From NCBI GenBank assembly GCA_913062605.1, contig CAJXWQ010000002.1:68761-132760 (forward strand): a DNA stretch of 64,000 nucleotides, in the 5' to 3' direction. The first letter of the stretch is position 1; every line of letters begins with the position of its first letter. The notes beneath the pieces are model-generated. The model searched no databases, was not told where the DNA came from, and saw only the letters and a list, made by a program, of their open reading frames with translations. A program made the translations under genes and the position numbers. Shown here in pieces: positions 5,768 to 20,777 of the stretch. This DNA comes from an uncultured Cellvibrionales bacterium (GTDB taxonomy: Bacteria > Pseudomonadota > Gammaproteobacteria > Pseudomonadales > Porticoccaceae).

Positions 5768-7162
5768 ATGGGCTTTTCCCAAAAAATATTAAACACTGTA
5801 CTGTTGGTAGCGTGCATATTAACAGGCACTGTGGTGGTGGCGGGCTCTCCATCAGACCATCCCGGAAAAAACAGCCCTGAAATAAATAGTCCCGAAGTAA
5901 ATAGTCTCGCCATAAAAAGTGACAGCCCCGTCACTGAGCTTAACCATGTTGCATCACCTGCTGATGAACAACATGGCCTGTCAGATACCTTTGACATTAA
6001 CTTCTCTATTGAAAATTACCAATCTGCCATTGAACAACAGGAAAATGAAGCCGGCCCCTATGATCCCGCGTTGTCAGAATTGTCCTTTGGGCTAGGAAAT
6101 GTCCTCCTGTACAACCACCGCTACGCAGATGCCATAAGTGCCTATAAACGATCCATGCACCTCCACCGAGTCAATGATGGCATCTACAGCCCATCCCAGA
6201 CCCCTATGTTACGTGGAATGATTAAGAGTCATATTAAGCTGGGGCAGACTAAGGACGCCTCTCAGAATTACCGCCAACTGTTCTGGCTGCATGCAAAAAC
6301 CTATGGTGAAAAAGATCCCAGATTGATACCTCTGATGGATGAAATCGGTCAGTGGCATTTGAAAGCCTATGCCCAAACAGGGCTCCAAGAAGACATCTAT
6401 CACCTCCAGGCCTCATCTCACCTTTATCTATCTGCTATTGAGCTAACCACTGAGGCGTTAGGCTCTTCCAGTCTGCAACTAGTGGGTCTATTGAACAATC
6501 TGGCGCTGACAAGTTATTACTTTGCCCTTCATCAGTGGAATTACCCCGATGCACGGGAGAATAACGCCCCTTCTCACTTTGGCTATCGATCATTTGGTCT
6601 TAGTGAAGAGGCACTCAGGAGAGGTAACCCCTATCGAAATGGTCTCACAAGCTATAGGAGGACTCTGGATGTTTTTGAGAACAATCCTGACGCGCCCATA
6701 GAAGATAAAGCTGCAACCCATGCCCAGCTAGGGGATTGGTATCTACTATTTGGCTACCAGGATTTAGCGATGGAGGCCTACCATCAAGCACATTCTGATC
6801 TGAGTGGTATTGAGCAGAAAGAGGTTATTCTGGAAACATTGTTCGGCACACCAAAAATACTGCCCATCACCCAAAAACAAATATTAAAGACCCCAAGTAT
6901 TGAAGGTGATGAACACCGTGAAAACCCTGAACGTGATGGCACTCCTTTATTCATTGAGCCTTATGTTAAGGTCGCTATTGATGTAACACCTGAAGGCAGA
7001 GTCACGGAGATTGATATTCTAAAAACCCACCCAGAGAATGCGCCAGGATTAGAAGCCCGAGTAAAACGGAGCCTGCGCGTCAGTAAATTTAGACCGCGTT
7101 TTGCCGATGGTCATGCAGTGCTCACCAATGACTACCCCATTAAAATGCTTACACCTAATTAG
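5768..7162 (+). CDS. TPR protein with TonB-like C-terminal domain, first gene of the 13-gene locus
   Basis: From ATG 5768 the 464-aa product begins with a signal peptide ('ILNTVLLVACILTGTVVVAG'). The longer frame from TTG 5669 would place 33 residues ahead of it and is rejected. A low-complexity linker follows ('NSPEINSPEVNSLAIKSD'), then tetratricopeptide-like helices in which one unit contains 'LGNVLLYNHRYADAISAYKRS'. Residues ~390-464 resemble a TonB C-terminal domain ('VAIDVTPEGRVTEIDILKTHP', '...KFRPRF'). It would be periplasmic. The next gene begins 8 bases later. I infer a scaffold or load-bearing role in the envelope complex encoded downstream. Confidence 0.7.
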   Translation: MGFSQKILNTVLLVACILTGTVVVAGSPSDHPGKNSPEINSPEVNSLAIKSDSPVTELNHVASPADEQHGLSDTFDINFSIENYQSAIEQQENEAGPYDPALSELSFGLGNVLLYNHRYADAISAYKRSMHLHRVNDGIYSPSQTPMLRGMIKSHIKLGQTKDASQNYRQLFWLHAKTYGEKDPRLIPLMDEIGQWHLKAYAQTGLQEDIYHLQASSHLYLSAIELTTEALGSSSLQLVGLLNNLALTSYYFALHQWNYPDARENNAPSHFGYRSFGLSEEALRRGNPYRNGLTSYRRTLDVFENNPDAPIEDKAATHAQLGDWYLLFGYQDLAMEAYHQAHSDLSGIEQKEVILETLFGTPKILPITQKQILKTPSIEGDEHRENPERDGTPLFIEPYVKVAIDVTPEGRVTEIDILKTHPENAPGLEARVKRSLRVSKFRPRFADGHAVLTNDYPIKMLTPN

Positions 7163-7170
7163 CAAGGCAA

Positions 7171-7953
7171 ATGTTTATGCGACACATGACCGGACTTCTG
7201 ACCTATGCACTGACCATAGCCATGGTCTTCCTGCTGGCCAGTTGCCAGAGCTCCTCGCAGTCCTCGAGTACGTCAACAACTTCATCATCGACCAGTTCAT
7301 CACAAGCACCACCTTCTAGCGCCGCTTCCGACTCTAGCCCCTCCTCCAATGGTGAACAGGGGGGAGAAAATATACCAGAACAGCAAGCATCCAATGAACC
7401 TGTAGACAGTAAAGGTGCACCTAATGACTCGAGTGATGACGGTGCCGGTGAAGAAGCAGGCATGTCCTCAGGGGGAGCTGGGGGAGAGATCATGAGCGAT
7501 GAAGAAGTTGTCTCCATACTCGATGACCAGCTGGATGAATCAATCGCGGTCTTTGACGGCATGATTATTAATGAAAGAGTCGCCGCTCAGGCTACCGAAA
7601 ACGACCTCCCCGAAGATGACGAACCTTGGGGAGAGGATGAACCTTTATTTGAGGAAGCGGATATCTCAGAAAACTCAGATAGCCAGGAACAAGCCTCATC
7701 ACCAACAACAGGAGGTGATGCCAGGGGAGATGATGTCACCTCAACGGCTCGTGGCGCCGGGGATGGCACCATCATTTCCCGTAGCGGCGTTAGAGGTAAT
7801 GCTGCAAATACTCAAGCCCCAGCAGACGTGCCCGATGGGAGCGATGATGATATCGTTGCTCGACAAATCCGTGAAGCCGCTCTGAAGGAAAAAGACCCAG
7901 TCTTACGTGAAAAACTCTGGGATGAATACCGCAAATACAAACGAGGCCAATAA
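7171..7953 (+). CDS. Ser/Asp/Glu-rich predicted lipoprotein of unknown function
   Basis: The 260-aa product starts with a type II signal peptide ending in lipobox 'LLASC' (Cys about 25). A Ser/Thr tract follows, then a long acidic, apparently disordered region ('SSDDGAGEEAG', 'EDDEPWGEDEP'). The last ~45 residues are charged and helix-like ('REAALKEKDPVLREKLWDEY'). It resembles no catalytic family I know. The composition suggests a flexible tether anchored in a membrane. AAGG lies 5 bases before the start, and the next gene follows after 3 bases, so translation is probably coupled. Confidence 0.65.
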   Translation: MFMRHMTGLLTYALTIAMVFLLASCQSSSQSSSTSTTSSSTSSSQAPPSSAASDSSPSSNGEQGGENIPEQQASNEPVDSKGAPNDSSDDGAGEEAGMSSGGAGGEIMSDEEVVSILDDQLDESIAVFDGMIINERVAAQATENDLPEDDEPWGEDEPLFEEADISENSDSQEQASSPTTGGDARGDDVTSTARGAGDGTIISRSGVRGNAANTQAPADVPDGSDDDIVARQIREAALKEKDPVLREKLWDEYRKYKRGQ

Positions 7954-7956
7954 GCA

Positions 7957-9141
7957 TTGTCTATCTCTATAAAGTATCTGTTCCAATGGTTAGCCCTCTT
8001 GCTGGCCTCATCAGCACTGATTGCCTGTAGTGGTCAACGTGTGACCACTACAGTAATCACCCCACTGCAACAACAAACTGCCCAAGTAGAAGAATCCCGG
8101 TTGCTGGATATCGCCATCCTGCCATTTGACCTGGGACTTGACGATGCTGGCGACGATAACGTCACCGTACTACCGGCAGTACGTAATGCAGAAGCTCAAT
8201 ACCTGCCCAACAAACTGGTAGCGACCCTTCAGCAAACTGCCTCTTGGGGTGCTGTACGAGCAGTCCCCAGCCGCCAGACCATCGTTGATGTGTATGTGGA
8301 TGGAACCATTGTGCATTCCGATGGTGAGACACTGACTCTAGATATCAGTGTTTCGGATTCCAGTAATCGTCACTGGTACAAAAAATCCTACGGTGAAACC
8401 GTGGGGCAATATGCCTACGACAATAGCCGACAAACAAAGCGTGATCCCTTTCAGGGATTATTTAACCGTATTGCTAATGATTTACTGCAATACAACCAGC
8501 AGTTAAGTACAGAAGATGCCAAAAAACTGCGCACTATATCCTCTCTACGTTTTGCCCGTGATTTCTCACCCGAAGCATTTAGTGACCATATTAAAGAAAC
8601 ACCCGGTGGCCAACTGGAAATACTTAGTTTGCCCGCGCGAAGTGACCCCACGCTTCTGCGTATCGAGCGTATACGTGAGCGGGATTACCTCTATATCGAC
8701 ACCATGCAAGAATACTATGATGCCTTCTCTCTCAGAATGGATAAACCTTACCAAGCATGGAGAATGGCCAGCTATGAAGAGCTAGAGGCCGTACGTGAAC
8801 TCAAACGCCAATCCCGCAACCGCACGATTGGTGGCATTGTCGCCATCTTGGGCGGCATCGCCGCCGCCGGAAGTAATAATGGCTCCGCTCAGTCTGCGGC
8901 AGCTGTATCCATCGGCGCAGGGGCGTTACTAATTAAGAGTGGGCTTTCCAAAAAAGCAGAGCTACAAATTCACGAAGATGCCTTAATAGAATTGGGGCAA
9001 TCTCTAGAGGCAGCCATTGAACCTCGTGTGATTGAACTGGAAAACCGCACCATCACTCTAACAGGCAATGTAGAAGCCCAGTACGCCCAGTGGAAAGCAC
9101 TGTTACGGGATATTTATCAAGCTGAGCGCGGCGGAATCTGA
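7957..9141 (+). CDS. Predicted lipoprotein with glycine-rich hydrophobic segment
   Basis: A 394-aa product starting at TTG, with a signal peptide and lipobox 'LIAC' (Cys about 24). The middle region ('DIAILPFDLGLDDAGDD', 'AEAQYLPNKLVATLQQTASWGAVRAVPS') looks like the domain of periplasmic or outer-membrane lipoproteins that set a threshold path or pore-assembly surface. A Gly/Ala-rich hydrophobic stretch ('GGIVAILGGIAAAGS', about 290-325) may insert in or across a membrane. The closing helical part ('QIHEDALIELGQSLEAAIEP') is regular. Spacing to both neighbours is under 6 bases, so it belongs to the locus. Function unknown. Confidence 0.65.
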   Translation: MSISIKYLFQWLALLLASSALIACSGQRVTTTVITPLQQQTAQVEESRLLDIAILPFDLGLDDAGDDNVTVLPAVRNAEAQYLPNKLVATLQQTASWGAVRAVPSRQTIVDVYVDGTIVHSDGETLTLDISVSDSSNRHWYKKSYGETVGQYAYDNSRQTKRDPFQGLFNRIANDLLQYNQQLSTEDAKKLRTISSLRFARDFSPEAFSDHIKETPGGQLEILSLPARSDPTLLRIERIRERDYLYIDTMQEYYDAFSLRMDKPYQAWRMASYEELEAVRELKRQSRNRTIGGIVAILGGIAAAGSNNGSAQSAAAVSIGAGALLIKSGLSKKAELQIHEDALIELGQSLEAAIEPRVIELENRTITLTGNVEAQYAQWKALLRDIYQAERGGI

Positions 9142-9146
9142 TCACA

Positions 9147-10643
9147 ATGGAAAGCAATAACGGCTTCGACCCGATCGAGCCAGCAGATATCACCCTGACC
9201 CAATCGGCTACCACCGCCAGAGAGGAAAAGCTCCCCTGGCAACAACAGCCGACGACCTATATTGCACTGGTCATCAGTATACTTCTGGCATTAGCCATTA
9301 TTTTTATTCTCCCACTGCTGATCAAACCCGCTGAAACACCCGCTGTTATTATCGAGCCACAGGACATTCAACGACCCAGTGTTCGAGAAGCGCCCTTTCA
9401 AGATGCCCAACTGTCCAAGGCTCGCAGGGCCGCCCAGGACACCCTGAGCCAAATTCTCGAAAAACAAAATTTTCTTGAAAAGAAAAACATCCGGCTTTGG
9501 GATGAAGCGGTATTCCAGACAGCTCTGGACCAAGCCGCCCATGGCGACGGTCTCTACCGGCAACGGGAATTTTTAGGGGCACAGACCGCCTACCAAGAAG
9601 CACTGAGTCAGCTCACTGCATTGGAAAAACACATACCAGATGAACTCTCCCTGGCTCTCGCCAATGGGCAACGTGCCATGACTGAGGGTGATGCCAGCGG
9701 TGCCCGGCAATACTATGAACTCGCCCTGGCCATTGACCCCAGAAGCAGTGAAGCAAAAACAGGTATCGATAGAACCGGCACATTGGACAAGGTCTTGGTT
9801 TTGCTCCGTCAGGCTCAGAGTGTTCTGGAACAACAACAGCTGGAGCAGTCGCAGGCTATTTTTCGGGAAGCCCTGACACTGGACCCACTGCACCCTCTGG
9901 CCATTAATGGTGTAGAGGAAACCTCCCGTCTCATTAAAGAAAGGGATTTCAACAACGCTATGAGTCGAGGCTACATCTCACTGGACAAGCAGCAATTCAA
10001 TACCGCCAGCAAAGTATTTAATGAGGCGTTAAAACTATACCCCGGCCACAAAGGGGCGCTTTCCGGCCGGGCTCAGGCAAACAATGCCGCAGCTCAACGC
10101 GCCACCCAATCACAGCTGGCTCAAGGCACAGCACTTGAATCCAAAGAACAGTGGCATAAGGCCAGGGATATCTACACCCGGATACTGGCTCGGGATAACT
10201 CGGTAATTGACGCCAAAATGGGGCAAATTCGCAGTTCGGCCCGAGCAAATCTCAGTGACAGTATTCAGACGATTCTAAGCAAACCCCTGCGGCTGTCCTC
10301 CACTAGTGTCTATCAGCATGGCCAACAGCTGCTCGTAGATGCCCGAGGTATAAGCTCACCGGGACCCAAACTAAGAGAGCAGATTAACCAGCTTGATCAA
10401 CTGTTAAAAAATGCTCTCATGCCCGTCACTATTGAACTGCAATCTGACAGTCGCACTGCCGTCACCCTGTTCAAAGTGGGGGAGCTTGGACAGTTTGACA
10501 AAAAGCACCTATCTCTCACCCCCGGTAATTATGTGGCGCAGGGCAGCCGACCGGGCTATCGTGATGTGCGTGTTGAGTTTCAGGTGACATCAAAGGGGTT
10601 ATCCAATCCTGTAGTCGTGGCCTGTAAGGAGCCGGTATCGTGA
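9147..10643 (+). CDS. Single-pass membrane protein with periplasmic TPR array
   Basis: The 498-aa product has a short cytoplasmic N-terminus and one transmembrane helix ('YIALVISILLALAIIFILPL', ~39-58). A periplasmic part with four or more TPR-like units follows ('YRQREFLGAQTAYQEAL', 'ASGARQYYELALAIDP', 'SQAIFREALTLDPLHPLAI', 'NTASKVFNEALKLYPGH'), then a small beta-rich tail. TPR arrays bind partner proteins. The orientation suggests it recruits the secreted or lipoprotein members of the locus. It overlaps the next gene by 4 bases (GTGA), so translational coupling is likely. Confidence 0.72.
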   Translation: MESNNGFDPIEPADITLTQSATTAREEKLPWQQQPTTYIALVISILLALAIIFILPLLIKPAETPAVIIEPQDIQRPSVREAPFQDAQLSKARRAAQDTLSQILEKQNFLEKKNIRLWDEAVFQTALDQAAHGDGLYRQREFLGAQTAYQEALSQLTALEKHIPDELSLALANGQRAMTEGDASGARQYYELALAIDPRSSEAKTGIDRTGTLDKVLVLLRQAQSVLEQQQLEQSQAIFREALTLDPLHPLAINGVEETSRLIKERDFNNAMSRGYISLDKQQFNTASKVFNEALKLYPGHKGALSGRAQANNAAAQRATQSQLAQGTALESKEQWHKARDIYTRILARDNSVIDAKMGQIRSSARANLSDSIQTILSKPLRLSSTSVYQHGQQLLVDARGISSPGPKLREQINQLDQLLKNALMPVTIELQSDSRTAVTLFKVGELGQFDKKHLSLTPGNYVAQGSRPGYRDVRVEFQVTSKGLSNPVVVACKEPVS

Positions 10644-12700
10644 CCGATAAGAACATACCGACTAAGGGTGAATCACTCATAGCACCCGTCGAGTTCACCC
10701 CAATGGAAGGGGAGGTCAAACGACCCACTTTCACACTTCGGCCAATAGCCATCATGACCGGATTGGCTTTTCTGATCAGCCTGCTGGTACTGTGGTTTTT
10801 GCTAACCGCTAAATCCGTGATTATCAGTATCGACCCAGCCACAGCAGAGGTACACCTTGAAGGCGGTATCACCTTTGAACTGGCTGATCATTACCTGATA
10901 CGACCGGGTGAATATCAGTTGATCGCCACGTCAGAGGGTTACCTGGATCTAAAGCAGTCATTTATCGTCAGCGAGGACGACAACCAGTTATTGCCGCTGA
11001 CATTGGAGAAGAAACCGGGGCATCTACAGATAACCACCAGCCCTGCCGGCGCTGAAATATTTGTCGATGGACAACAGGTGGGTATCAGCCCCATGACGGT
11101 TACCCCTCTATCAGCGGGTAACCACCGACTGGAAATTCTAGCTCCACGCTATTTCACCCATCAGGCCAGTGTCGATATCGAAGGCCTGGACCACAACCAA
11201 GCCCTTAACGTTGATCTCGACCCCGCCTGGGGACAGATTCAGCTCAGCTCCATTCCACCCAATGCAGCGGTCACCATCAACAATGAACCTCGTGGTCACA
11301 CACCGTTGACCACAGAACTTCTTACCGCTGGCGAGATGGTGAGTGTCGCGTTGAAGAGTTACAAGCTCTGGAATAAAGCGTTACAGGTGCCTGCGGGTGA
11401 AACACTGATAGTCCCAGAAATTATTCTGGAGCCATCAGATGGTGTCATCGAAGCTACCTCTACCCCCTCGGGGGCAACCATCACAGTTGATGGGCAATAT
11501 CGTGGTACCACACCCATCACCCTGAAGGTGGCCGCCAACGAAAAGCACCAGATATCACTCTTCCTTAATGGCTATACCACCAACAAACACTCCCTATTGC
11601 TAGCACCTGGAGAAACAGAAAAACTGACTATTTCGATGAAGGCTAACGTTGGGGGCATCAGGGTGCTGGCCTCACCCTCTGACGCCTCAGTATGGGTTGA
11701 TGGTGTACGAAGAGGCACTGCGGGAAAAACCTTCCGCCTACCTGCACGTCCCCACCGAATTGATATCAAAAAGCCTGGGTACGCCAGCGAAACCAGAACC
11801 GTCACACCCCAGCCTAAACTGGACCAAGTGATTAGAGTGTCACTCCTCACTGAACAAGAAGCACGATGGGCTAGTATCCCCAAGGTCATCACCAGCCCCG
11901 GCGACCAGACCCTCAAGTTATTTAAACCAAAAACCAAATTTGTCATGGGTGCCTCACGACGAGAGTCGGGAAGACGTGCCAATGAGGTATTGCGAGATGT
12001 CCAGCTAACGCGCCCCTTTTATCTGGCAACCAAGGAAGTCACGAACTCGGAATTCAAACGCTTTCAACGCCAGCACAGCTCTCGGCATATCAATGGCAAC
12101 ACTCTGGATTTACCGGTGCAGCCAGTGGTGAATATCAGTTGGCAGCAAGCGGCTGCCTACTGTAACTGGCTGAGCAAAAAGGAAAATTTGAAACTATTTT
12201 ATAAAGAGGAACAAGGTAAAATAGTTGGCGAAGACATCAAAGCTAATGGTTACCGCCTACCAACAGAAGCTGAATGGGCCTGGGCTGCTCGAATAACCGA
12301 CAGTGGCGCGAAGAAGTATATTTGGGGTAACCAGTTTCCACCCACTACAGGAAATTTTGCTGATATCAGCGCAGGAAAAGTTATCGGCCGAGTGGTTAAC
12401 AACTATAACGATAGCTATCCCGGCTCGGCACCCGTGGGTAGCTTTCCCTCAAACCATAAGGGAATTTTTGATCTGGGGGGCAATGTGGCTGAGTGGGTGA
12501 ATGACTACTACGGGATCGAGTTTAGTCTCAGTATGGCCGCAGACATAGACCCTTCCGGTCCAGCAAAGGGTGATATACGAGTGATCCGGGGTGCCAGTTG
12601 GCGCCATAGCAGTATCACTGAGTTGCGACTTTCATTCCGTGACTACGGCATTGATCCGCGCGATGATGTGGGCTTCAGGATTGCCCGCTATGTGGAGTAG
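10640..12700 (+). CDS. Membrane-anchored PEGA-repeat protein with cysteine-less FGE-like domain
   Basis: A 686-aa protein, GTG start overlapping the previous stop. It has one transmembrane helix (~36-56). Five PEGA-type beta units follow (~60-400; e.g. 'SPAGAEIFVDGQQVGISPM', 'TPSGATITVDGQYRGTTPI', 'SPSDASVWVDGVRRGTAG'). The C-terminal domain (~425-686) is of the FGE-sulfatase/SUMF1 fold ('GYRLPTEAEWAWAAR', 'FDLGGNVAEWVNDYYG', 'RVIRGASW', 'DDVGFRIAR'). Active formylglycine-generating enzymes carry two cysteines just after the 'RGGS' element. Here that stretch reads 'WRHSSITELRLSFRDYG' with none, so oxidase activity is unlikely and a binding role is inferred. No sulfatase gene is nearby. Confidence 0.8.
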   Translation: MTDKNIPTKGESLIAPVEFTPMEGEVKRPTFTLRPIAIMTGLAFLISLLVLWFLLTAKSVIISIDPATAEVHLEGGITFELADHYLIRPGEYQLIATSEGYLDLKQSFIVSEDDNQLLPLTLEKKPGHLQITTSPAGAEIFVDGQQVGISPMTVTPLSAGNHRLEILAPRYFTHQASVDIEGLDHNQALNVDLDPAWGQIQLSSIPPNAAVTINNEPRGHTPLTTELLTAGEMVSVALKSYKLWNKALQVPAGETLIVPEIILEPSDGVIEATSTPSGATITVDGQYRGTTPITLKVAANEKHQISLFLNGYTTNKHSLLLAPGETEKLTISMKANVGGIRVLASPSDASVWVDGVRRGTAGKTFRLPARPHRIDIKKPGYASETRTVTPQPKLDQVIRVSLLTEQEARWASIPKVITSPGDQTLKLFKPKTKFVMGASRRESGRRANEVLRDVQLTRPFYLATKEVTNSEFKRFQRQHSSRHINGNTLDLPVQPVVNISWQQAAAYCNWLSKKENLKLFYKEEQGKIVGEDIKANGYRLPTEAEWAWAARITDSGAKKYIWGNQFPPTTGNFADISAGKVIGRVVNNYNDSYPGSAPVGSFPSNHKGIFDLGGNVAEWVNDYYGIEFSLSMAADIDPSGPAKGDIRVIRGASWRHSSITELRLSFRDYGIDPRDDVGFRIARYVE

Positions 12701-12719
12701 GACTGGGTTGAGTAGAGCT

Positions 12720-12977
12720 ATGTGGAGTAACACAGTGAAATGCAAGGCTGGCGTAGGATTACTATTGCTGACAATACTGTTCCCGCTATCGGTTACAGCA
12801 GAGAAATCCACTGAAGAAGCGTCGGCAGATGTAGAGCAGGTAGAAAAACCTGATCCTAAATCTGCCGCTAAACCTACTACTAAGCCCAGGCCACAAAGCA
12901 AAACAACAGACCGGGAATTTGATCCCAGTGAAGAAATATCAGAGGATCTATCGGTCCCTTTCCCAGTAGATATTTAA
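12720..12977 (+). CDS. Small predicted secreted protein
   Basis: This frame encodes 85 aa from ATG 12720: a signal peptide ('AGVGLLLLTILFPLSVTA') followed by a charged, proline- and lysine-rich tail ('EKPDPKSAAKPTTKPRPQ') ending in an acidic segment. A start at ATG 12690, overlapping the previous stop, is possible but would put extra charged residues before the hydrophobic core. The reading frame is open even further upstream inside the PEGA/FGE gene, which is taken as chance. No family recognised. The low-complexity tail resembles a periplasmic linker peptide. Confidence 0.5.
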   Translation: MWSNTVKCKAGVGLLLLTILFPLSVTAEKSTEEASADVEQVEKPDPKSAAKPTTKPRPQSKTTDREFDPSEEISEDLSVPFPVDI

Positions 12978-12996
12978 GGGAACGGCTAAAAAGGGC

Positions 12997-13836
12997 ATGA
13001 CTAAAAAAGTACGGTTACAAAGGAACCTGTCAAATATGCAAACAAGAGCTTCCTCAGATTTTCTCTATCAGGTCTTTGCTCTGATTCTGGCACTTATTCT
13101 GGTACATACTTTTTACCTCACACTAATACGCCCCAATGCCAATGCGCTTCTCCAGCAACAGCTAGCAAGAGAGGCTGCAGGAGAAGCCTATGTGGCCGAG
13201 CGCTCTTTCTTCATTGTGGTCAAGGATTATGAGCAAGAGGCCTGCTTTGTCTTAATGTTATGGGCCTTCGCCATTATGGGGCTCAAAGCCCGCAATGCTA
13301 TGGGTGAACGCAAACTATTAACCGGGCAACTGCTTAACGTGTCAGAGGGCACCCGAATTTTGCCCGAAGATGCTCGACAGATGTCTCGACCTATCCAGGC
13401 ATTACCTGACGCACAGAAAGATTATCTGGTATCCCGGTCACTATTGGCAGCCCTTCGACGATTTGACTCCACTCGTAACATTCAAGATGTTTCCAGTGCG
13501 GTCAGTGAGGTACTGGACACCGAATCAGACCGACTGGACTCTGAGCTATCTATGGTGCGATACATTGCCTGGGCAATCCCCTCCATCGGCTTCATTGGTA
13601 CGGTAAGAGGTATTGGTGAAGCTTTAGGCCAGGCCCACAAGGCAGTGCAAGGTGATATTGCCGGGGTGACCGCAAGCCTTGGCGTTGCCTTTAACTCCAC
13701 GTTTATCGCACTGGTCATCAGCATTGTGGTGATGTTTTTAATGCACCAGCTACAGCTGATGCAGGAACGACTGGTATTGGATACCCACAGCTATTGCGAT
13801 GACAATCTACTGCGCCACCTCAAGACAGATGGATAA
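12997..13836 (+). CDS. MotA/TolQ/ExbB-like proton channel subunit
   Basis: A 279-aa inner-membrane protein with helices near residues 24-44, 81-97, 188-208 and 224-250 and a cytoplasmic domain between the second and third. The last two helices carry the family pattern: 'IAWAIPSIGFIGTVRGIGEAL', then 'GDIAGVTASLGVAFNSTFIAL'. This corresponds to the TolQ/ExbB/MotA pore segment with its Gly-T-V-x-G turn and Thr/Ser-rich final helix. Such proteins form pentamers around a dimer of MotB/ExbD-type subunits and use proton flow to do work in the periplasm. Two candidate partners with the required transmembrane Asp lie downstream. An alternative ATG at 13036 would shorten the N-terminus. Confidence 0.82.
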   Translation: MTKKVRLQRNLSNMQTRASSDFLYQVFALILALILVHTFYLTLIRPNANALLQQQLAREAAGEAYVAERSFFIVVKDYEQEACFVLMLWAFAIMGLKARNAMGERKLLTGQLLNVSEGTRILPEDARQMSRPIQALPDAQKDYLVSRSLLAALRRFDSTRNIQDVSSAVSEVLDTESDRLDSELSMVRYIAWAIPSIGFIGTVRGIGEALGQAHKAVQGDIAGVTASLGVAFNSTFIALVISIVVMFLMHQLQLMQERLVLDTHSYCDDNLLRHLKTDG

Positions 13837-13857
13837 GCATTCCCCTAAGGGCTGATC

Positions 13858-15216
13858 ATGAATGTTGCCATTATTGAAATCAACGACAGCGGCTTGTGCT
13901 GTGGCAATGATCGGGGTGAGCTGATTGTCAGCCCCGGCTATGCCCTTCTCACCAACGAAGGCATTACCACCGGCAAAGAGGCCTTTGAGCATGCCTATCT
14001 GGAACCACAACAAAGCTTTAACCAGTATTGGCGCCAGCTAAATCTGTCCCCGCTTCCCGCCCCCAACAACCATGCCCGGCACCATGCAGACTTGGCCTAT
14101 GCCCAACTGCTGGAACTACACCGTGAAAGTGGTAGCCCCCAGCAAATTATCTTCGCCACCCCGGGCAGCTTCGACCGGGATCAGCTATCCATCCTGCTTG
14201 GGCTGGCCAAGGCATCCCCCTTTGAGGCTTTAGGCTTAGTTGACTCAGCGGTGGCTGCAGCCAGTCAGTCTGGTCTTAGCGGCCAGTTATTACATCTGGA
14301 TATCCAACTCCATCAGTGTGTACTGACCAGACTCAACGCCGGTAGCCCTGTTGGGCACAACGATGCGGAACACAGCCCTATTGAACGCAACTATATTGAA
14401 CGTACTGATGTCGAGGTCATCTCCGATATAGGCCTAAAAACCTTTTACGACACCTGGGCTCAGCATATCGCCAATATGTTTATTCGGCAGTACCGGTACG
14501 ACCCACTACATACCGCTGCCGGAGAACAGCAACTCTATGACTTATTACCAAACTGGCTGAGTCAGATAACGGAAACATCAGAGCTGGCAATTGCCCTTGA
14601 TAGCCCCCAAGGAAGTTATCGCCTCAACCTCAACCGCAGTGATTTATTGGCGAGCAGCCGCACTCGGCTGGATCAGCTACAGAAAAAAGTACGCAATATT
14701 CGACGAGAGGGTGAAACCATCATTGCCAGCCACAGAACCCTATTGTTACAGGGGTTCTCAGAACAGCTGAGGCAAATCAACACCCTGCCCAATGATGCTG
14801 TTATTCAGGGTTGCCTGAATAACCTGGAGGCCATTGTTGGCAATGAGGAAACTACCCACTTTGTCACCCGATTGCCTAGTAACAGTGTCCAATCCCAGAT
14901 ATCGGCATCTACATCAGTACCGACACCTACATCAGCACCAGTGCCGGCACCCACCGTCACGGCCACACCAACCCATGCACTGTATCAGCACAAGGCCCAC
15001 GAGATTGGTGATGGTCTATATATTCGCATTGATGACGACCAACTGATTTTTTCCCATCAGCACACCGGAGATATTTCACTCACCAAAGAGAATGGCAAAG
15101 TACAGTTACGCTCCGACCGTCCCGATCTGTCTACATCGAATAACAGGAATGACCTTCCTTCCGGAGCCACTATCCACATAGGTGCGCACCAGCTGCAATT
15201 AATTGAGGTCACCTGA
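13858..15216 (+). CDS. Actin/Hsp70-like ATPase-fold protein with FHA-like C-terminal domain
   Basis: The 452-aa product begins 'MNVAIIEINDSGLCCGND', like the first phosphate loop of the actin/Hsp70 fold. It continues with 'IIFATPGSFDRDQLSILLGLAK', 'ALGLVDSAVAAAS' and a second loop-like 'LLHLDIQLHQCVLTRL'. A Thr/Pro/Ala linker (about 350-372) leads to a beta-rich tail ('DGLYIRIDDDQLIFSH...GATIHIGAHQLQLIEV') that resembles an FHA or similar small sandwich. No signal peptide, so it should be the cytoplasmic member of the locus. Key nucleotide-binding residues look imperfect, so ATP hydrolysis is uncertain. AAGGG sits 8 bases before ATG. Confidence 0.6.
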   Translation: MNVAIIEINDSGLCCGNDRGELIVSPGYALLTNEGITTGKEAFEHAYLEPQQSFNQYWRQLNLSPLPAPNNHARHHADLAYAQLLELHRESGSPQQIIFATPGSFDRDQLSILLGLAKASPFEALGLVDSAVAAASQSGLSGQLLHLDIQLHQCVLTRLNAGSPVGHNDAEHSPIERNYIERTDVEVISDIGLKTFYDTWAQHIANMFIRQYRYDPLHTAAGEQQLYDLLPNWLSQITETSELAIALDSPQGSYRLNLNRSDLLASSRTRLDQLQKKVRNIRREGETIIASHRTLLLQGFSEQLRQINTLPNDAVIQGCLNNLEAIVGNEETTHFVTRLPSNSVQSQISASTSVPTPTSAPVPAPTVTATPTHALYQHKAHEIGDGLYIRIDDDQLIFSHQHTGDISLTKENGKVQLRSDRPDLSTSNNRNDLPSGATIHIGAHQLQLIEVT

Positions 15217-15217
15217 G

Positions 15218-16282
15218 TTGCGCCGCCCCAAGCGAAAAATTACCACCTTCAGCCTGTCATTTCTCGACATCATGGCCTGTGGTTTTGGCGCAGTCACTTT
15301 GTTATTCCTGATCCTCAAGCACGATGCTACCGCCGTTGAAACGGCAGACCCTTACCTTGTCGCTGAAACCAACCTGCTCACCGAAGAAGTCCGGATAGGT
15401 GAGGAAGATTTGGTCACACTAAAAAACAGTTTGGCCGCTCTGGAACAAACATTTTTGGACGCCCAGGGACTCTCTAAAAGAGTGCTTGCCCAAACTCGGG
15501 AAGTCCGTCGAGAATTAAGTGCCCAATCTGACCCGGAACAGGAAGTTGAACTGTTGCGTAAACAGGTGGAAGAACTTGAAGAGGAGACAGCCAAACTTCA
15601 AGATCAGGGCAATGATGAAAATGTTCGGCGTTTTGTGGGTGAAGGTGAACGCCAATATCTCACCGGCCTCAAACTAGGAGGTCAACGTGTCATGATTCTG
15701 GTAGATATCTCTGCCAGCATGCTGTCTGACTCCATCGTCAATGTCATACGCCGACGCAATATGAGTGATGACATCAAACGCAATGCGGATAAATGGAAAC
15801 GAGCAATCCGCACCACCGAGTGGCTGATCGCACAATTACCCCGGACAAGCCGCTACCAAATTTACACATTCAATACAAAAGCCAATGCTGTCAATGGTGA
15901 TAATGGCATTTGGCGAGACACTGCCGACAGCGCAGGCATGGATCAAAGCATCAAGGCGCTGGCACGTATTGCCCCAAATGGAGGAACTAGCCTGATCAAC
16001 GCGTTCCAGGCTATAGGGGACTTTAATAACCCACCGGACAATCTATTTTTAATCACCGACGGCCTGCCCACTCAGGGCAAAAAAGCGCCCAGTGGTAGTA
16101 CTGTCTCCGGTAAAAAGAGAGCAAAACTCTTCAATGAGGCTAGTAGTGAATTACCTCGGGGCATACCCCTCAATGTTCTACTATTCCCCATGGAGGGTGA
16201 CCCGGTAGCCGCCGCTAGTTTTTGGCAACTAGCTCTGTTCACTAAAGGCTCATTTATAAGCCCATCAAGGGACTGGCCATGA
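15218..16282 (+). CDS. MotB/ExbD-like membrane protein fused to a VWA domain (copy 1)
   Basis: A 354-aa protein. TTG 15218 is preferred over TTG 15203 because GAGG lies 9 bases before it. After a basic N-terminus comes one transmembrane helix with motif 'SFLDIMACGFGAVTLLFL', whose Asp (about residue 17) matches the proton-carrying Asp of MotB/ExbD. A coiled coil (~60-130) follows, then a von Willebrand factor A domain with metal-site motifs 'DISAS' (~163-167), 'GGTSL' and 'TDGLP'. The VWA part would be periplasmic. It starts 1 base after the actin-like gene and overlaps copy 2 by 4 bases. Domain reading is firm; the role as stator partner of the MotA-like protein is inference. Confidence 0.8.
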   Translation: MRRPKRKITTFSLSFLDIMACGFGAVTLLFLILKHDATAVETADPYLVAETNLLTEEVRIGEEDLVTLKNSLAALEQTFLDAQGLSKRVLAQTREVRRELSAQSDPEQEVELLRKQVEELEEETAKLQDQGNDENVRRFVGEGERQYLTGLKLGGQRVMILVDISASMLSDSIVNVIRRRNMSDDIKRNADKWKRAIRTTEWLIAQLPRTSRYQIYTFNTKANAVNGDNGIWRDTADSAGMDQSIKALARIAPNGGTSLINAFQAIGDFNNPPDNLFLITDGLPTQGKKAPSGSTVSGKKRAKLFNEASSELPRGIPLNVLLFPMEGDPVAAASFWQLALFTKGSFISPSRDWP

Positions 16283-17280
16283 GCCGGGAAAAACGCAGAG
16301 AAAGACGTATCTCGGCTGAAATCAGTATTTCATTTCTGGATGTGATCAGCTGTGGCTTTGGGGCCATTGTACTGTTACTTCTCATCGCCAAAACAGTGGA
16401 ATCCACTGCCTTCGAAACCGTGGAGCGGCCACTGGAAGGCAGTGTTGCCGAGTTACAACAGCAGTTATTTCAAATTAGAGGTGAAACTACGATACTGAGT
16501 CGCTCTCTAAAGACCCGAGAAGAACAACTTTCAGACCTTCAGCTGCGCATAGCACAGCTGCAAGAGGAGCTGGCCAGTGTGCGCAGACAGAGAGATGCCG
16601 TCGCACAGGTAGATACCTCCGAAAAAGATAAACTGACACTGGCCCTGCAAGTTCTCACGGAAGAAATGAAACGGTTGCTCGATGACCAAAACAGGGTGAG
16701 TAACCAGCTCATTGGTGGCATACCGGTAGATAGCGAATACATTATTTTTATTGTCGACACCTCAGGTAGCATGTTCAATTTTGCCTGGCCACGAGTGCGA
16801 CAGGAAATGATCAATATCCTCAACATCTATCCACGGGTGAAAGGGATACAGATCATGAATGATATGGGCGAATATATGTTCTCCAGCTATCGGGGTAAAT
16901 GGATTCCGGACACCCCCGCTCGACGTCGAGCGGTTCTCAATCGTCTCGCCACTTGGACACCCTTCAGCAACTCCAGCCCAGTTGAGGGGGTACAGCAAGC
17001 CATCCGCCGGTTTTATGCCTCAGATAGAAAAATCAGTCTGTACGTATTTGGCGATGATTTCACTGGCCACTCCATCGCCCGAGTGGTTGACACCATCGAC
17101 AAAATTAACCGAAAAGGCAGTGCTAGCAAGCGATTGGTACGAATTCATACCATCGGCTTCCCTGTCCACTTTCTAGTTCAAGGGGGCAATCTGCAAACGG
17201 CAACCCGATTCTCCGCACTGATGCGGGAACTGAGCTATCGTAATAATGGAACCTTTGTCGGTCTCAGTGGCCTTGAATAA
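16279..17280 (+). CDS. MotB/ExbD-like membrane protein fused to a VWA domain (copy 2)
   Basis: A 333-aa paralogue of the preceding gene, ATG overlapping its stop (ATGA). It repeats the architecture: basic N-terminus, transmembrane helix 'SFLDVISCGFGAIVLLLL' with an Asp near residue 21, coiled coil (~50-110), then a VWA domain opening with a complete MIDAS motif 'DTSGS' (160-164) and 'YVFGDDF' later. The second MIDAS element is less clear than in copy 1. Two different VWA stators in tandem suggest a heterodimer. A 13-bp direct repeat covers its stop codon and the next bases. Confidence 0.8.
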   Translation: MSREKRRERRISAEISISFLDVISCGFGAIVLLLLIAKTVESTAFETVERPLEGSVAELQQQLFQIRGETTILSRSLKTREEQLSDLQLRIAQLQEELASVRRQRDAVAQVDTSEKDKLTLALQVLTEEMKRLLDDQNRVSNQLIGGIPVDSEYIIFIVDTSGSMFNFAWPRVRQEMINILNIYPRVKGIQIMNDMGEYMFSSYRGKWIPDTPARRRAVLNRLATWTPFSNSSPVEGVQQAIRRFYASDRKISLYVFGDDFTGHSIARVVDTIDKINRKGSASKRLVRIHTIGFPVHFLVQGGNLQTATRFSALMRELSYRNNGTFVGLSGLE

Positions 17281-17357
17281 ATGGCCTTGAATAAGTGACC
17301 ACAAAAAATTCCAATCAATGCTTTCAAATAAAGGCACCCAAATAAAAGGTACCACCG

Positions 17358-17999
17358 ATGACAATATGCAGGGCCACTCGATATCATCGACTAGTACTGC
17401 TACTCGCTTCAGTCCTGACTGGCGCCTGTTCAACGGACATCATTATCCATGGCGATTACCCCTCGGCCCTCACCCGACAACTCCCCCACCATGTAGGACT
17501 GGTACTCGATGATACCTTCACCCATTACACCTTTGAGAGCAGCCAGGAACAGGATGTCACCATGGCACTGGGCGAATCGCAAACAGCGCTCTTCAGTCAA
17601 ATATTCGGTGATATATTTAAGAGCGCCACCAGGCTCAACACCATCAACCAAACCTTAACCAGCAAAGTGGATTTGGTCGTTGTTCCTCACATTGAAGAGG
17701 TTCAGTTGGCCATGCCTTTTGAAACCCGACTTAACGTGTTTGAGGTCTGGCTTAAGTACAATCTGCAGGTTTTCGACAGCGAGGGTGAACCCATTGCGGA
17801 CTGGTTGATGACGTCCTATGGCAAGACTCAAAGCCGCCTCCTGACATCTGAAGAAGAAGCACTGAATCAGGCCACCACTGAAGCGCTAAGAGACGCTGGG
17901 GTGCGATTGGTCATCGGCTTTCACAGGGTACCTGAAATTCGGGACTGGCTTGCCAGCCAACAGACCCCGGGCACATTGGCACAGGGAGATAGTCAATGA
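17358..17999 (+). CDS. Predicted lipoprotein
   Basis: A 213-aa product with signal peptide and lipobox 'LTGAC' (Cys about 24). The mature part alternates strands and helices ('VDLVVVPHIEEVQLAMPFETRLNVFEVWLKYNLQVF' region), a pattern common in small outer-membrane lipoproteins. No catalytic motif. The 77-base gap before it is the largest in the locus and could hold an internal promoter. AAAGGT lies 9 bases upstream of ATG. No family recognised with confidence. Confidence 0.65.
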   Translation: MTICRATRYHRLVLLLASVLTGACSTDIIIHGDYPSALTRQLPHHVGLVLDDTFTHYTFESSQEQDVTMALGESQTALFSQIFGDIFKSATRLNTINQTLTSKVDLVVVPHIEEVQLAMPFETRLNVFEVWLKYNLQVFDSEGEPIADWLMTSYGKTQSRLLTSEEEALNQATTEALRDAGVRLVIGFHRVPEIRDWLASQQTPGTLAQGDSQ

Positions 18000-18008
18000 G
18001 GCCTAGTC

Positions 18009-18704
18009 ATGAGACATAGTGTGGTAACACAAATAACCACCCTTGCGCTGGTGATACTGTCACTTGCTGCCTGCTCTACCTCGACCACGATTGATGAATT
18101 TAGAGAGGCCCGTCTCGACCTAGAGCTCAGCGATTCTGAGCAAGTAGTCGTTATGGGAAGGAGGCATGCTGGCGAATATGAGACAGAACCAGACTTCATA
18201 GACTGTATAGGCAACCGACTTGCCAGTGGCGGAAAAGTATCGGTTATGCCTGAACAGCAGTTTCTGGACAGCTTCTACCCCTGGTTTGAGCCAAGGGTGG
18301 CCCCCCTAAAGCTAAAACGTATGGGTATGATGCTCAATGATCCACTGATTGCAGAACGGATTAATAGTCTCAGCATACGCTATTTAATCTGGGTGGATGG
18401 CCGCACTGAAACCACAGAAAAAAGTGGTTCAGTTAACTGCGCTCTTGCTCTCGGAGGTGGCGGATGTTTTGGGTTTGCCTCTTGGGATAAAACAGCAAGC
18501 TATGAAGCAACCGTATGGGACTTAAAACAACTCGATGAAGAGGGTCGAGTAAAAGTAAGCACTGAAGGGTCATCCTATGTATTGGCAGTGGTTGCCCCAA
18601 TCCCCTTTATTGCACAGGTTCAAGATAATGCCTGTAAAGGCATCGGTGACCGCTTGAAAGGTTTCTTTAGCCACGTTGAACCCGGCCGTAGTAAGCGGAA
18701 TTAA
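18009..18704 (+). CDS. Predicted lipoprotein
   Basis: A 231-aa product with signal peptide and lipobox 'LAAC' (Cys about 22), followed by a mixed alpha/beta domain ('QVVVMGRRHAGEYETEPDFIDCIG'). A Gly/Cys-containing hydrophobic loop ('CALALGGGGCFGFASW') and a second late Cys ('DNACKG') suggest periplasmic disulfides. It lies 2 bases before the protease gene and 9 bases after another lipoprotein, so it is part of the locus. Function unknown. Confidence 0.65.
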   Translation: MRHSVVTQITTLALVILSLAACSTSTTIDEFREARLDLELSDSEQVVVMGRRHAGEYETEPDFIDCIGNRLASGGKVSVMPEQQFLDSFYPWFEPRVAPLKLKRMGMMLNDPLIAERINSLSIRYLIWVDGRTETTEKSGSVNCALALGGGGCFGFASWDKTASYEATVWDLKQLDEEGRVKVSTEGSSYVLAVVAPIPFIAQVQDNACKGIGDRLKGFFSHVEPGRSKRN

Positions 18705-18706
18705 CT

Positions 18707-20116
18707 ATGATGTATCACAACCTGATTTTCACTCTATTGATCGCCCTCTTCTTCACAGGGCAGCTTGCTCATGCAGCCAAAGACACACCCGAAACCGGCG
18801 AAGAAATGCATGAAGAGATTATTGCCAATATGCCCTTGGTAAAAGGCAAGTTAGCTGAGTACGTCAACCAGGTGGGGCAGCGTATCATCCGCCATTTGGA
18901 TAACACAGACGAAACATTCACCTTCACCGTTATCGATAAGCCCCACATTAACGCCTTTGCCCTCCCGGACGGCTATGTCTACATCAACCGAGGGCTGATT
19001 ACCTACCTAAACTCCGAAGCACAGCTGGTTGCTGTACTGGCCCATGAAGTCGGCCACGTTACAGCCAACCACCATGCCCGAGGGGAGCGAGCTCAACTAG
19101 GCTCCAACTTGATGGCAGGACTATTAGCCATTCTAACCCGCAGTGCCGATGTTGGTGAGGCAAGCGCCCTATGGGGAACCTCTCTGGTGAGTGGCTACGG
19201 TCGAGACATGGAGCTGGAGGCCGATGAGTTGGGTAGTCAGTATCTCTTCAACTCCGGTTACGACCCTCAGGCCATGATCGAGGTTATCTCCCTACTGAAG
19301 GATCACGAACGTTTCGAGAAACAGCGTGCACAAGATTCGGGTAAAAAAGTTCAGACCTACCACGGTCTCTTCTCCACCCATCCACGTAATGATAAGCGGC
19401 TTCGAGAAGTGGTGAGCAAGTCTGGCAGCTTCCCCAAAGCCACCGATGCCGAACAAAACATCACCCCATTTAGAATGGCAACTGAAGGCATGGTCTGGGG
19501 CAAAAACTTTGAAAAAAATGTATTACCGGAGAATGTTTATCAGAATAAAAAGCGGGCCTTTCAAGTGTACTTTCCCAAGGAGTGGAACTTCAGTGAGCAG
19601 GCGCAATTAATTCAAGCTGAAAATAAACTTAAAAACGCACGTATCGATATCACTATTATGACTCGCTCTGTGGCAGCACCTGAAAAATTTATCAAAAACC
19701 GGCTAAACATACCGCTTATTAAAAAATCTGAGGCCTTTATACAGTTGAGACTCAAGGGGCACACAGGGTTTGTTCCCGGCGAAAACGGTCTGCCTGACCA
19801 ACGTCTAGCCGTCATCTATTATGGCCGTCAGGCTTACGTATTTCGTGGGAAAATTGATTCAGGGGCTGATGAGAAACAGGCCAATAGTGATTTTCTTCGC
19901 ATCATTAAAAGCTTCCGCCCCATTTCGAAACGCTCCTTAAAAGAGCGTAAACCAAAAACCATTCATTATGTTAAAGCCACTGAAAACACCCGTTTTTCCC
20001 GACTTGCTCGTCACCTTAAACTAGGTAAATACGGCGAAGATGAATTACGAATCATCAATGGTTATTATCCTGCTGGCGAGCCAAAGCCCGGTGAGTGGAT
20101 CAAACTTATTCGTTAA
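18707..20116 (+). CDS. M48 family periplasmic zinc metalloprotease, BepA-like
   Basis: A 469-aa exported protease with a signal peptide ('LIFTLLIALFFTGQLAHA'). The M48 catalytic core has zinc motif 'HEVGH' (113-117) and the distal ligand segment 'ELEAD' (~169-173). The second half is an extension ending in a LysM-like segment ('FSRLARHLKLGKYGEDELR'). BepA/YfgC-type proteases monitor outer-membrane protein and lipoprotein assembly. Here it closes the 13-gene locus, 2 bases after a lipoprotein gene, so it may process or police its components (inference). Confidence 0.85.
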   Translation: MMYHNLIFTLLIALFFTGQLAHAAKDTPETGEEMHEEIIANMPLVKGKLAEYVNQVGQRIIRHLDNTDETFTFTVIDKPHINAFALPDGYVYINRGLITYLNSEAQLVAVLAHEVGHVTANHHARGERAQLGSNLMAGLLAILTRSADVGEASALWGTSLVSGYGRDMELEADELGSQYLFNSGYDPQAMIEVISLLKDHERFEKQRAQDSGKKVQTYHGLFSTHPRNDKRLREVVSKSGSFPKATDAEQNITPFRMATEGMVWGKNFEKNVLPENVYQNKKRAFQVYFPKEWNFSEQAQLIQAENKLKNARIDITIMTRSVAAPEKFIKNRLNIPLIKKSEAFIQLRLKGHTGFVPGENGLPDQRLAVIYYGRQAYVFRGKIDSGADEKQANSDFLRIIKSFRPISKRSLKERKPKTIHYVKATENTRFSRLARHLKLGKYGEDELRIINGYYPAGEPKPGEWIKLIR

Positions 20117-20285
20117 TAATGTTTTTTCTGTAGTACAGTTTTACACCAACAGTGTTTTATTAAAATCCACGGATAGAACTGATCAGTCACAAAAGTTCTT
20201 TGCCGGGTCTACCAAGACAAGCCTACTATCCAGACTTACTTTTCTACGGACAGAATTTTGTAAAAAAATTATCCAGGAGCACATC

Positions 20286-20777
20286 ATGGAACATTATTGC
20301 CCGTCCATACCTAGCACTCAGGTAACAACAGAATATGTAATGACCTATGTGGCGCCACTTGATCCACCTGTGGTCATTGATGACGGAATGATGATTGTCA
20401 ATGTTCGCCCAGGCGGCTGGGTTCAAGGTCCAAAGATCAGCGGAAAATTTATTGCTCCTGGTGCTGACTGGCTTCGTATTATGCCTTCAGGCGTATTTCG
20501 CCTGGATGTTAGAGGCCTGATCCAAACCGATGACGGCGCCCATATATACATGTCTTACAACGGCATTATCAAAAACTCCGAAGAAAGCGCTGAGCGCCTC
20601 AATAGCGGAGAACTACTCACCGATAAAGATATCCCCTATTTTATTGCAGCACCGACATTTCAAACATCGTCTAAAAAATATGCATGGCTCAATGAGGTTC
20701 AGACTGTCAATAAGATGGTCGAAATTCAATTTGGAGAATTGGGTTATGTAAAGTACGACGTGTTCATTGTTCGATAA
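20286..20777 (+). CDS. DUF3237 family protein
   Basis: The 163-aa product starts at ATG 20286, preceded by CAGGAG 6 bases upstream. The longer frame from 20040 overlaps the protease gene and is rejected. It contains DUF3237 features: 'VRPGGWVQGPKISGKFIAPGADW', 'FRLDVRGLIQTDDGAHIYM'. The family folds as a beta barrel and its activity is not established. It stands alone between the 13-gene locus and an oxidoreductase gene. DUF3237 genes often sit near genes for degradation of aromatic or lipid compounds, so a link with the oxidoreductase is possible. Confidence 0.8.
   Translation: MEHYCPSIPSTQVTTEYVMTYVAPLDPPVVIDDGMMIVNVRPGGWVQGPKISGKFIAPGADWLRIMPSGVFRLDVRGLIQTDDGAHIYMSYNGIIKNSEESAERLNSGELLTDKDIPYFIAAPTFQTSSKKYAWLNEVQTVNKMVEIQFGELGYVKYDVFIVR

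Follow-up and report, generated by a model that had tools for sequence, protein, structure and literature searches.

A MotA/TolQ/ExbB-family pore and a pair of VWA proteins in a conserved Porticoccaceae gene cluster: a probable trans-envelope motor

Introduction

In bacteria, motors built on MotA, TolQ or ExbB subunits are known to power swimming and gliding, the import of nutrients, the maintenance of the outer membrane, secretion and the defence against phages. Here we describe a gene cluster of an uncultured Cellvibrionales bacterium of the family Porticoccaceae that encodes a pore subunit of this kind together with two VWA proteins. The cluster lies in a stretch of 64,000 nucleotides, referred to as the window, which corresponds to positions 68,761 to 132,760 of the forward strand of contig CAJXWQ010000002.1 (assembly GCA_913062605.1). 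The window is part of a 2.17-Mb draft genome consisting of 47 contigs, which is 91% complete. The thirteen genes of the cluster are numbered 01 to 13 in the direction of reading. We consider it probable that the cluster encodes one trans-envelope motor, driven by an ion gradient, in which the products of the genes 09 and 10 would form the axle and which would act on outer-membrane lipoproteins.

The closest described systems were reported in 2025 (PMC12204202). According to the available part of that paper, vWA proteins, mostly in heterologous pairs, adjoin tolQ-like genes at loci without tolR or exbD. These proteins carry a TolR-like pore helix with an ion-binding Asp, and AlphaFold 3 (AF3) models put the transmembrane helices of the vWA pair inside a TolQ-like pentamer. 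The authors propose that these proteins rotate within the pore, and no function is reported in this part of the paper. In a term search of two further papers, PMC12505986 and PMC12905483, 'vWA' did not occur. A search of open-licence literature turned up no description of the cluster as a whole.

A cluster kept in one order

All thirteen open reading frames (ORFs) are located on the + strand within positions 5768–20116 of the window (Table 1). This confirms the co-directional cluster proposed at this place by an earlier reading, which was made from the letters of the DNA alone and is called here the sequence-only reading. It had described the genes as mostly overlapping or less than 25 bases apart. 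The junctions do consist of overlaps of 4–14 bases or gaps of 2–21 bases, with a single exception: 77 bases, the widest gap in the cluster, separate the genes 10 and 11 (17280 to 17358). A scan of the cluster for promoters and terminators gave matches at chance level only.

Two samples of homologous loci were compared. The first comprises 20 loci of relatives, compared by tblastn, and the second comprises 80 named loci, the best 80 of at least 244 confirmed relatives obtained when an alignment of gene 10 was run against named genomes of bacteria and archaea. Counts over the named loci lean to nearer relatives, many of the loci come from metagenome-assembled genomes (MAGs), and they are not independent, with L080, L081, L083 and L084 being near-identical and L042 and L047 being located on contigs of equal length. 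The gene profiles applied to the 80 loci were trained on the loci of the 20 relatives; a few of the training rows start too far upstream and have stops written as X. One collection of homologous ORFs left out those that lacked a stop or held an N. Presence counts cover the loci with room for the gene on the contig; gene 10 served as the query, and the contigs left no room for a count of gene 01.

The detected genes follow one order in all 20 loci of the relatives, and tblastn detected all thirteen genes in 13 of these. The undetected genes are 06 in L026, 06 and 08 in L027 and L038, 06 and, at a contig edge, 01 in L030, 12 and 13 in L032, and 13 in L040; the locus L031 is cut by the contig end. 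Gene 01 is present in 18/20 loci, and the remaining two are truncated by contig ends. Order and strand are also kept in 79 of the 80 named loci. The exception is L117, from a Myxococcales MAG, in which two convergent halves, 06–10 and 02–05, occupy approximately positions 6000–18600. The genes 09 and 10 are paired in all 75 named loci with room. The counts for the other genes are 44/46 (02), 52/53 (03), 55/57 (04), 59/60 (05), 63/66 (06), 66/66 (07), 61/68 (08), 75/75 (09), 61/76 (11), 59/73 (12) and 46/65 (13). The order kept in both samples rules out chance clustering, and the genes do not usually occur apart, as the sequence-only reading had expected. That reading was right in treating the genes as one unit and needs correction in the number of members: the recurring core consists of about eight genes, 02–07, 09 and 10, and the genes 08, 11, 12 and 13 are accessory.

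The named loci belong mostly to Pseudomonadota, and also to Thermodesulfobacteriota, Acidobacteriota and Myxococcota; many of the bacteria that keep the gene order are marine. The closest named relative of gene 10 among the matches listed is found in a Porticoccus MAG (92% identical). Five named loci were scored as lacking both 08 and 11–13, and all of them fall inside one ten-row clade, which contains gammaproteobacterial and deltaproteobacterial-type rows, in a quick tree of the loci that had no outgroup and included two long rows. A distant family of the same phylum likewise has 02-03-04-05-07-09-10 with a micro-gene 06, and is without 08 and 11–13. A survey of 58 genomes gave strong gene 07 matches in 36 of the 37 genomes of the own family, the own genome included, and in 3/21 genomes of other families of the order, where six more matches are weak and TolQ-like. 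With the gene 10 profile, 96 of the 390 genomes of the order matched, two of them weakly. Across the phylum 18 of 398 genomes matched, two again weakly, and 13 of the other 16 belong to one distant family. Four genomes (G518, G564, G655 and G723) gave four gene 10 profile matches each, including a second, more distant copy at 249–266 bits; possibly two such motors are encoded per genome. The ends of the cluster look sharp, since the genes that recur in its flanks are lineage-bound or belong to common families (25 largest families).

The pore subunit and its VWA partners

The product of the gene 07 matches the Pfam family MotA_ExbB (PF01618) with 58.9 bits against a cut-off of 22.9. The MotA/ExbB-like channel of the sequence-only reading has thus passed the profile check that had been named beforehand. 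The residues T202 and T235 are invariant in 20/20 rows, and we take them to correspond to two pore Thr positions of TolQ and ExbB. The motif GTV is kept in 68/68 sequences.

The genes 09 and 10 each encode an N-terminal hydrophobic stretch with an Asp near its start, followed by a coiled coil and a VWA domain. In the homologues of gene 09 both the membrane Asp and the DxSxS motif of the metal ion-dependent adhesion site (MIDAS) are present in 75/75 cases. In those of gene 10 the membrane Asp is found in 79/79, within FLD in 78 and within YLD in L097, and DxSxS likewise in 79/79. The two VWA proteins with a MotB/ExbD-like helix had been recognized earlier, and the conservation of both motifs in all homologues counted bears this out. 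The hydropathy of the N-terminal helix is clear in gene 10 (2.5) and marginal in gene 09 (1.57). A search of solved structures with the gene 09 sequence returned mainly coiled coils.

Neither gene 09 nor gene 10 gave a Pfam match to the periplasmic domain of ExbD/TolR or of MotB, and for this reason the cluster is not a plain member of the 5:2 motors. By analogy it may be regarded as a variant of the MotA/TolQ/ExbB 5:2 motors in which the pore family and the axle Asp are kept; the 5:2 ratio would be carried over by the same analogy. The genome has four ExbD genes, all of which are located on other contigs, and three of them adjoin other MotA-family genes. The motor therefore seems to have VWA axles only. 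In the available part of PMC12204202, the TPH-vWA systems are described as a tolQ-like gene beside a heterologous vWA pair with a transmembrane Asp and without tolR or exbD, and the genes 07, 09 and 10 present the same arrangement. They very probably belong to the same family as these motors, a comparison made by description rather than by sequence with the Idiomarina example.

The conserved chain end of the gene 06 product

The gene 06 encodes a small secreted protein whose precursors range from 46 to 121 residues and have a variable body. The protein had been noticed by the sequence-only reading, which missed its conserved tail. The chain ends with Asp-Ile in 88/88 ORFs and carries Pro at position −4 in 87/88. 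As these ORFs were mostly picked by profile, a recount by position was made, which found a P-x-D-I-stop frame between the genes 05 and 07 in 65 of 67 loci. The two misses are L082, which ends in HADI, and L098, which is located at a contig edge and does carry an FPVDI end. In the distant family the FPVDI end is found in 7/7 loci, and there the mature part would comprise only approximately 17 residues, assuming cleavage of the signal peptide at its apparent site.

Each of the fixed sites is encoded by several synonymous codons (ATT/ATC/ATA for Ile, GAT/GAC for Asp and all four Pro codons), and therefore the constraint acts on the protein. An FPxDI-stop pattern has three matches in the DNA of the own genome, against 0 for a control pattern, and a plausible gene is terminated by just one of them, the match in gene 06. 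A tail of this type on other proteins of the genome was rejected, because the other two matches end short frames. The fixed acidic chain end, encoded beside two intact MIDAS domains, suggests by its motif a ligand bound through the metal.

Putative frame and outer-membrane-side proteins

The product of the gene 01 matches TPR_12 with 49.1 bits, above the cut-off. Its C-terminal match to TonB_C stays below the cut-off (20.7 vs 24.6 bits). The sequence-only reading had named two TPR proteins, one with a TonB-like end; the TPR repeats are found in both 01 and 04, and the TonB-like end is the part that did not reach the threshold. The gene 02 product has a conserved tail, DDxVxRQxREAA...LWxEYRxxK, which a strict regular expression found in 56 of 65 sequences; the nine misses visibly carry the tail. 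No lipobox was seen in the gene 02 products of some relatives.

The gene 03 product had been recorded as a lipoprotein, and its domain of a ring-former type had been overlooked. Its lipobox Cys is nearly invariant. The sequence search of solved structures returned nothing useful for this protein. The AlphaFold 2 (AF2) model has a predicted local distance difference test score (pLDDT) of 81.6, and the domain, in this monomer model, aligns with FlgT (Z 10.5, root-mean-square deviation (rmsd) 4.1, 132 residues aligned), with a chain of the LPHT ring (Z 10.0), with PelC (Z 9.9, rmsd 2.2, 111 aligned), with CsgG (Z 9.1) and with TolB-N (Z 7.9). Foldseek gave weak matches, the best at E 1.6e-3. Together the model gives moderate support for placing gene 03 in the CsgG/PelC/FlgT/TolB-N superfamily. 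FlgT, PelC, CsgG and TolB belong to the outer-membrane side, and several of them assemble into rings.

The PEGA-FGE-like character of the gene 05 product is confirmed by Pfam matches to PEGA (155.6 bits, four stretches) and to FGE, the formylglycine-generating enzyme family (151.3 bits). The nearest NCBIfam model is GldK (E 7.9e-32), whose cut-off of 350 bits is well above the score of 111.1. The solved relatives found by sequence are SUMF1 (4.6e-19) and PorK chains (1.2e-16). We take the copper-binding Cys pair of formylglycine-generating enzymes to lie in the C-terminal segment, and no Cys occurs in any of the 73 such segments found among 78 proteins, five of which were not matched by the pattern. 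An active enzyme of this type was thus rejected for gene 05, as its catalytic segment is without the expected Cys. The layout from inner to outer membrane that the sequence-only reading had assumed is supported.

Gene 08, the downstream accessory genes and the flanks

The product of the gene 08 has no Pfam match that would indicate an Hsp70-like fold. Its AF2 model (pLDDT 90.4) has a best Foldseek match of E 1.5e-17 and aligns with DnaK at Z 30.4 and rmsd 2.9 over 315 residues, in a comparison covering residues 1–331 only. On the basis of this model gene 08 is predicted to have the fold of the Hsp70 nucleotide-binding domain. Gly-rich phosphate loops are typical of Hsp70 ATPases; the loops of gene 08 are degenerate (11 of 33 rows viewed). 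A profile of the C-terminal part matched 26 PDB sequences at E ≤ 1, mostly FHA proteins, with CHFR as the best FHA match (E 6.4e-4), and the end of the protein is probably an FHA-like domain. The Hsp70-like nature of the protein had been perceived correctly from the sequence, and its FHA-like end and degenerate loops had not. In L027 and L038, which represent one genus of the family, no gene 08 match is found and gene 09 follows gene 07 almost directly, so that gene 08 is dispensable in this genus.

The genes 11 and 12 encode lipoproteins for which sequence searches found no solved relative. The M48 protease expected for gene 13 is supported by a Peptidase_M48 match of 123 bits, by sequence matches to M48 and BepA structures and by the motif HExxH...ExxAD, which is present in 65/65 sequences. 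In L040, a genome of the same genus, no M48 gene is seen (approximately 2300–3100), and gene 12 and the next downstream gene are in place. A gene for a PpiC-type periplasmic isomerase, judged by eye, follows closely 3′ of gene 13 in 11 loci (L027, L028, L029, L030, L031, L038, L056, L064, L068, L079 and L082) and is a possible fourteenth member in one subgroup.

Just upstream of the cluster an FRG-domain protein (PF08867, E 1.5e-20) is encoded at 2278–3381 on the + strand, and its matches include PDC-S15 candidate defence models (E 2.1e-42). On the 3′ side a DUF3237 protein (20271–20777, +, E 1.7e-30) is found, in near relatives only. Further downstream a single ORF (22988–24628, −) appears by eye to encode an alpha/beta hydrolase fused to a methyltransferase, resembling BioH-BioC. 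It is located between a bioD-like gene and a gene resembling that of 8-amino-7-oxononanoate synthase.

Table 1. Genes of the cluster, with positions in the window
Gene	Position	Strand	Product and features
01	5768..7162	+	TPR protein, exported, TonB_C-like at its end; in near relatives the upstream member
02	7171..7953	+	Lipoprotein; variable body, conserved C-terminal helix motif
03	7957..9141	+	Lipoprotein; predicted FlgT/PelC/CsgG/TolB-N-like fold at residues ~40-183, then long helices
04	9147..10643	+	TPR protein, single-pass membrane (TPR_2 50.9 bits); hydrophobic segment 41-59
05	10640..12700	+	Single-pass membrane protein; four PEGA domains and FGE-like domain; hydrophobic segment 36-54
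06	12720..12977	+	Small secreted protein with P-V-D-I-COOH end; start codon uncertain
07	12997..13836	+	MotA/TolQ/ExbB-family pore subunit (PF01618 match)
08	13858..15216	+	Predicted Hsp70-type nucleotide-domain fold, degenerate phosphate loops, C-terminal FHA-like domain
09	15203..16282	+	VWA1, putative axle protein: transmembrane Asp D22, coiled coil, VWA with MIDAS
10	16279..17280	+	VWA2, putative axle protein: transmembrane Asp D21, coiled coil, VWA with MIDAS
11	17358..17999	+	Accessory lipoprotein, fold unknown; lipobox Cys invariant in 29 rows
12	18009..18704	+	Accessory lipoprotein, fold unknown; lipobox Cys invariant in 29 rows
13	18707..20116	+	Accessory exported M48 metalloprotease

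Proposed mechanism and its alternatives

We infer that the products of the cluster form one complex, to which we assign a stoichiometry, a use of ions (protons included), rotation, a ligand and an outcome as follows. Copies of the gene 07 product, five by analogy, would form a ring in the inner membrane. The heterodimer of the gene 09 and 10 products would be the axle, whose membrane Asp residues would carry the ions and whose VWA heads would turn or swing in the periplasm. The membrane-anchored products of 04 (TPR) and 05 (PEGA/FGE) would serve as a static frame, and the lipoprotein 03 together with 02 would make up the outer-membrane side. In the least certain step the VWA heads would act on a peptide ligand, for which the Asp-Ile end of the gene 06 product is the likeliest candidate. 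The motor would thereby pull on or remodel outer-membrane lipoproteins. Where it is present, the gene 08 product may be a cytoplasmic adaptor or regulator, and that of gene 13 may provide quality control.

This proposal is supported by the linkage, motifs and folds of the cluster: the kept order and co-occurrence of the genes, the PF01618 match, the invariant Thr and Asp residues, the pairing of 09 with 10, the location of the ExbD genes elsewhere in the genome, the intact MIDAS motifs, the gene 03 fold and the gene 06 tail. The published AF3 models support it as well (PMC12204202, available part). Several observations count against it. The gene 07 profile matched no solved structure at E ≤ 0.001, for which reason gene 07 is regarded as a distant member of its family. 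The VWA domain falls under the Pfam cut-off in gene 09 (E 1.6e-5) and is very weak in gene 10 (E 0.16). The genes 08 and 11–13 are frequently absent, the locus L088 is without 02–05 although 06–13 are present, and one member of the own family, G034, has no gene 07 in a genome that is 94% complete. The idea of a C-terminal ligand is a juxtaposition of motifs.

The step that involves gene 06 could be explained in two ways. The tail may bind a TPR domain, that of 04 or 01, instead of the VWA domains, in which case gene 06 would be an assembly linker and the heads would grip something else. A C-terminal carboxylate clamp is known from the binding of Hsp70 and Hsp90 to TPR proteins, TPR proteins are encoded in the same cluster, and the conserved feature of gene 06 is precisely its chain end. 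The intact MIDAS in both VWA heads, however, suggests some acidic ligand, and we give the TPR explanation a modest chance. According to the second explanation, the MIDAS heads of the axle would act as a metal-gated gripper that binds and releases the P-x-D-I-COOH end and passes force to the frame and to a ring of 03-type lipoproteins. Action on the tail of a secreted protein is, to our knowledge, without precedent among the descriptions of MotAB, Ton, Tol, Agl and Gld motors, and the chance that we allow the gripper is small.

Other explanations concern the cluster as a whole. It may encode an engine for surface motility or secretion that resembles Agl-Glt or Gld/T9SS (type IX secretion system), with gene 05 as a GldK-like ring part and an adhesin or substrate being driven. 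The nearest models and structures of gene 05 include GldK and PorK, and the Agl-Glt core shares part types with the cluster, namely a TolQ-like pore, a transmembrane partner pair, TPR, FHA and TonB (PMC3169522, available part). We nevertheless consider such an engine quite unlikely: gene 05 is far under the GldK cut-off and has SUMF1 as the better match among solved structures, and the cluster showed neither an outer-membrane barrel nor an adhesin nor a secreted substrate bearing a sorting domain, although no search aimed at barrels was made. A static scaffold, in which 07, 09 and 10 form a channel or anchor that does no work and the VWA, PEGA and TPR parts tether both membranes, appears improbable to us. 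It is favoured by the fact that the motion and ion flow of a motor are deduced here from sequence features, but invariant pore Thr and ion-carrying Asp residues would be needless in a mere scaffold. It is very improbable that the genes are merely neighbouring envelope genes with 11–13 as a separate module; 08 and 11–13 are missing in whole clades and a 77-base gap precedes gene 11, yet the order is kept across phyla while the flanks change. Least credible is an anti-phage system of the Zorya (ZorAB) kind, which shares the MotA-like pore and was rejected because gene 07 matches ZorA weakly (E 0.0055), ZorB is not matched and the cluster is near-universal in its own family (36/37 genomes).

Comparison with known systems

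The trans-envelope motor proposed here shares the pore family, the axle Asp and the direction towards the outer membrane with the Tol-Pal and Ton systems (TolQR, ExbBD), and gene 03 resembles TolB-N. It differs from them in that VWA heads take the place of the TolR/ExbD domain. In gammaproteobacteria the Agl-Glt core (AglRQS with GltC, D, E and G) likewise forms one conserved cluster. There AglQ and AglS are ExbD/TolR proteins and GltG unites FHA and TonB within a single membrane protein, and no VWA, PEGA or FGE parts are named in the available part of the paper (PMC3169522). Membership in the Agl-Glt family was rejected, as the axle pair is of the VWA and not of the ExbD/TolR type. The Gld/T9SS machinery (GldKLM, PorK) resembles the cluster in combining an FGE-type protein with an ion-driven motor, whereas the gene 05 product is membrane-anchored and carries PEGA repeats. 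T9SS membership was rejected as well, with GldK below its cut-off and no GldL or GldM model matched. FlgT of the Vibrio flagellar H/T ring is the closest structural match of the gene 03 domain; the likeness is limited to this one domain, and no flagellar genes are present in the cluster.

The available text on the TPH-vWA systems describes the motor and the vWA pair and does not name a frame or any FGE/PEGA, lipoprotein, FHA or tail-peptide partners (PMC12204202). The motor half has thus already been described from sequence, and for the other parts no description was found. The view of the sequence-only reading that the parts belong to no one named system therefore needs correction for the motor and the VWA pair, and stands for the cluster as a whole. 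To the published pore and vWA axle the cluster adds a likely frame, an outer-membrane side and a secreted protein with a near-fixed end. It would represent a further whole machine of the MotA/TolQ/ExbB kind, whose core of about eight genes stays together across several phyla. Culturable carriers are found in Microbulbifer, Pseudoalteromonas and Bowmanella, in which the question of what the motor acts on can be tested directly.

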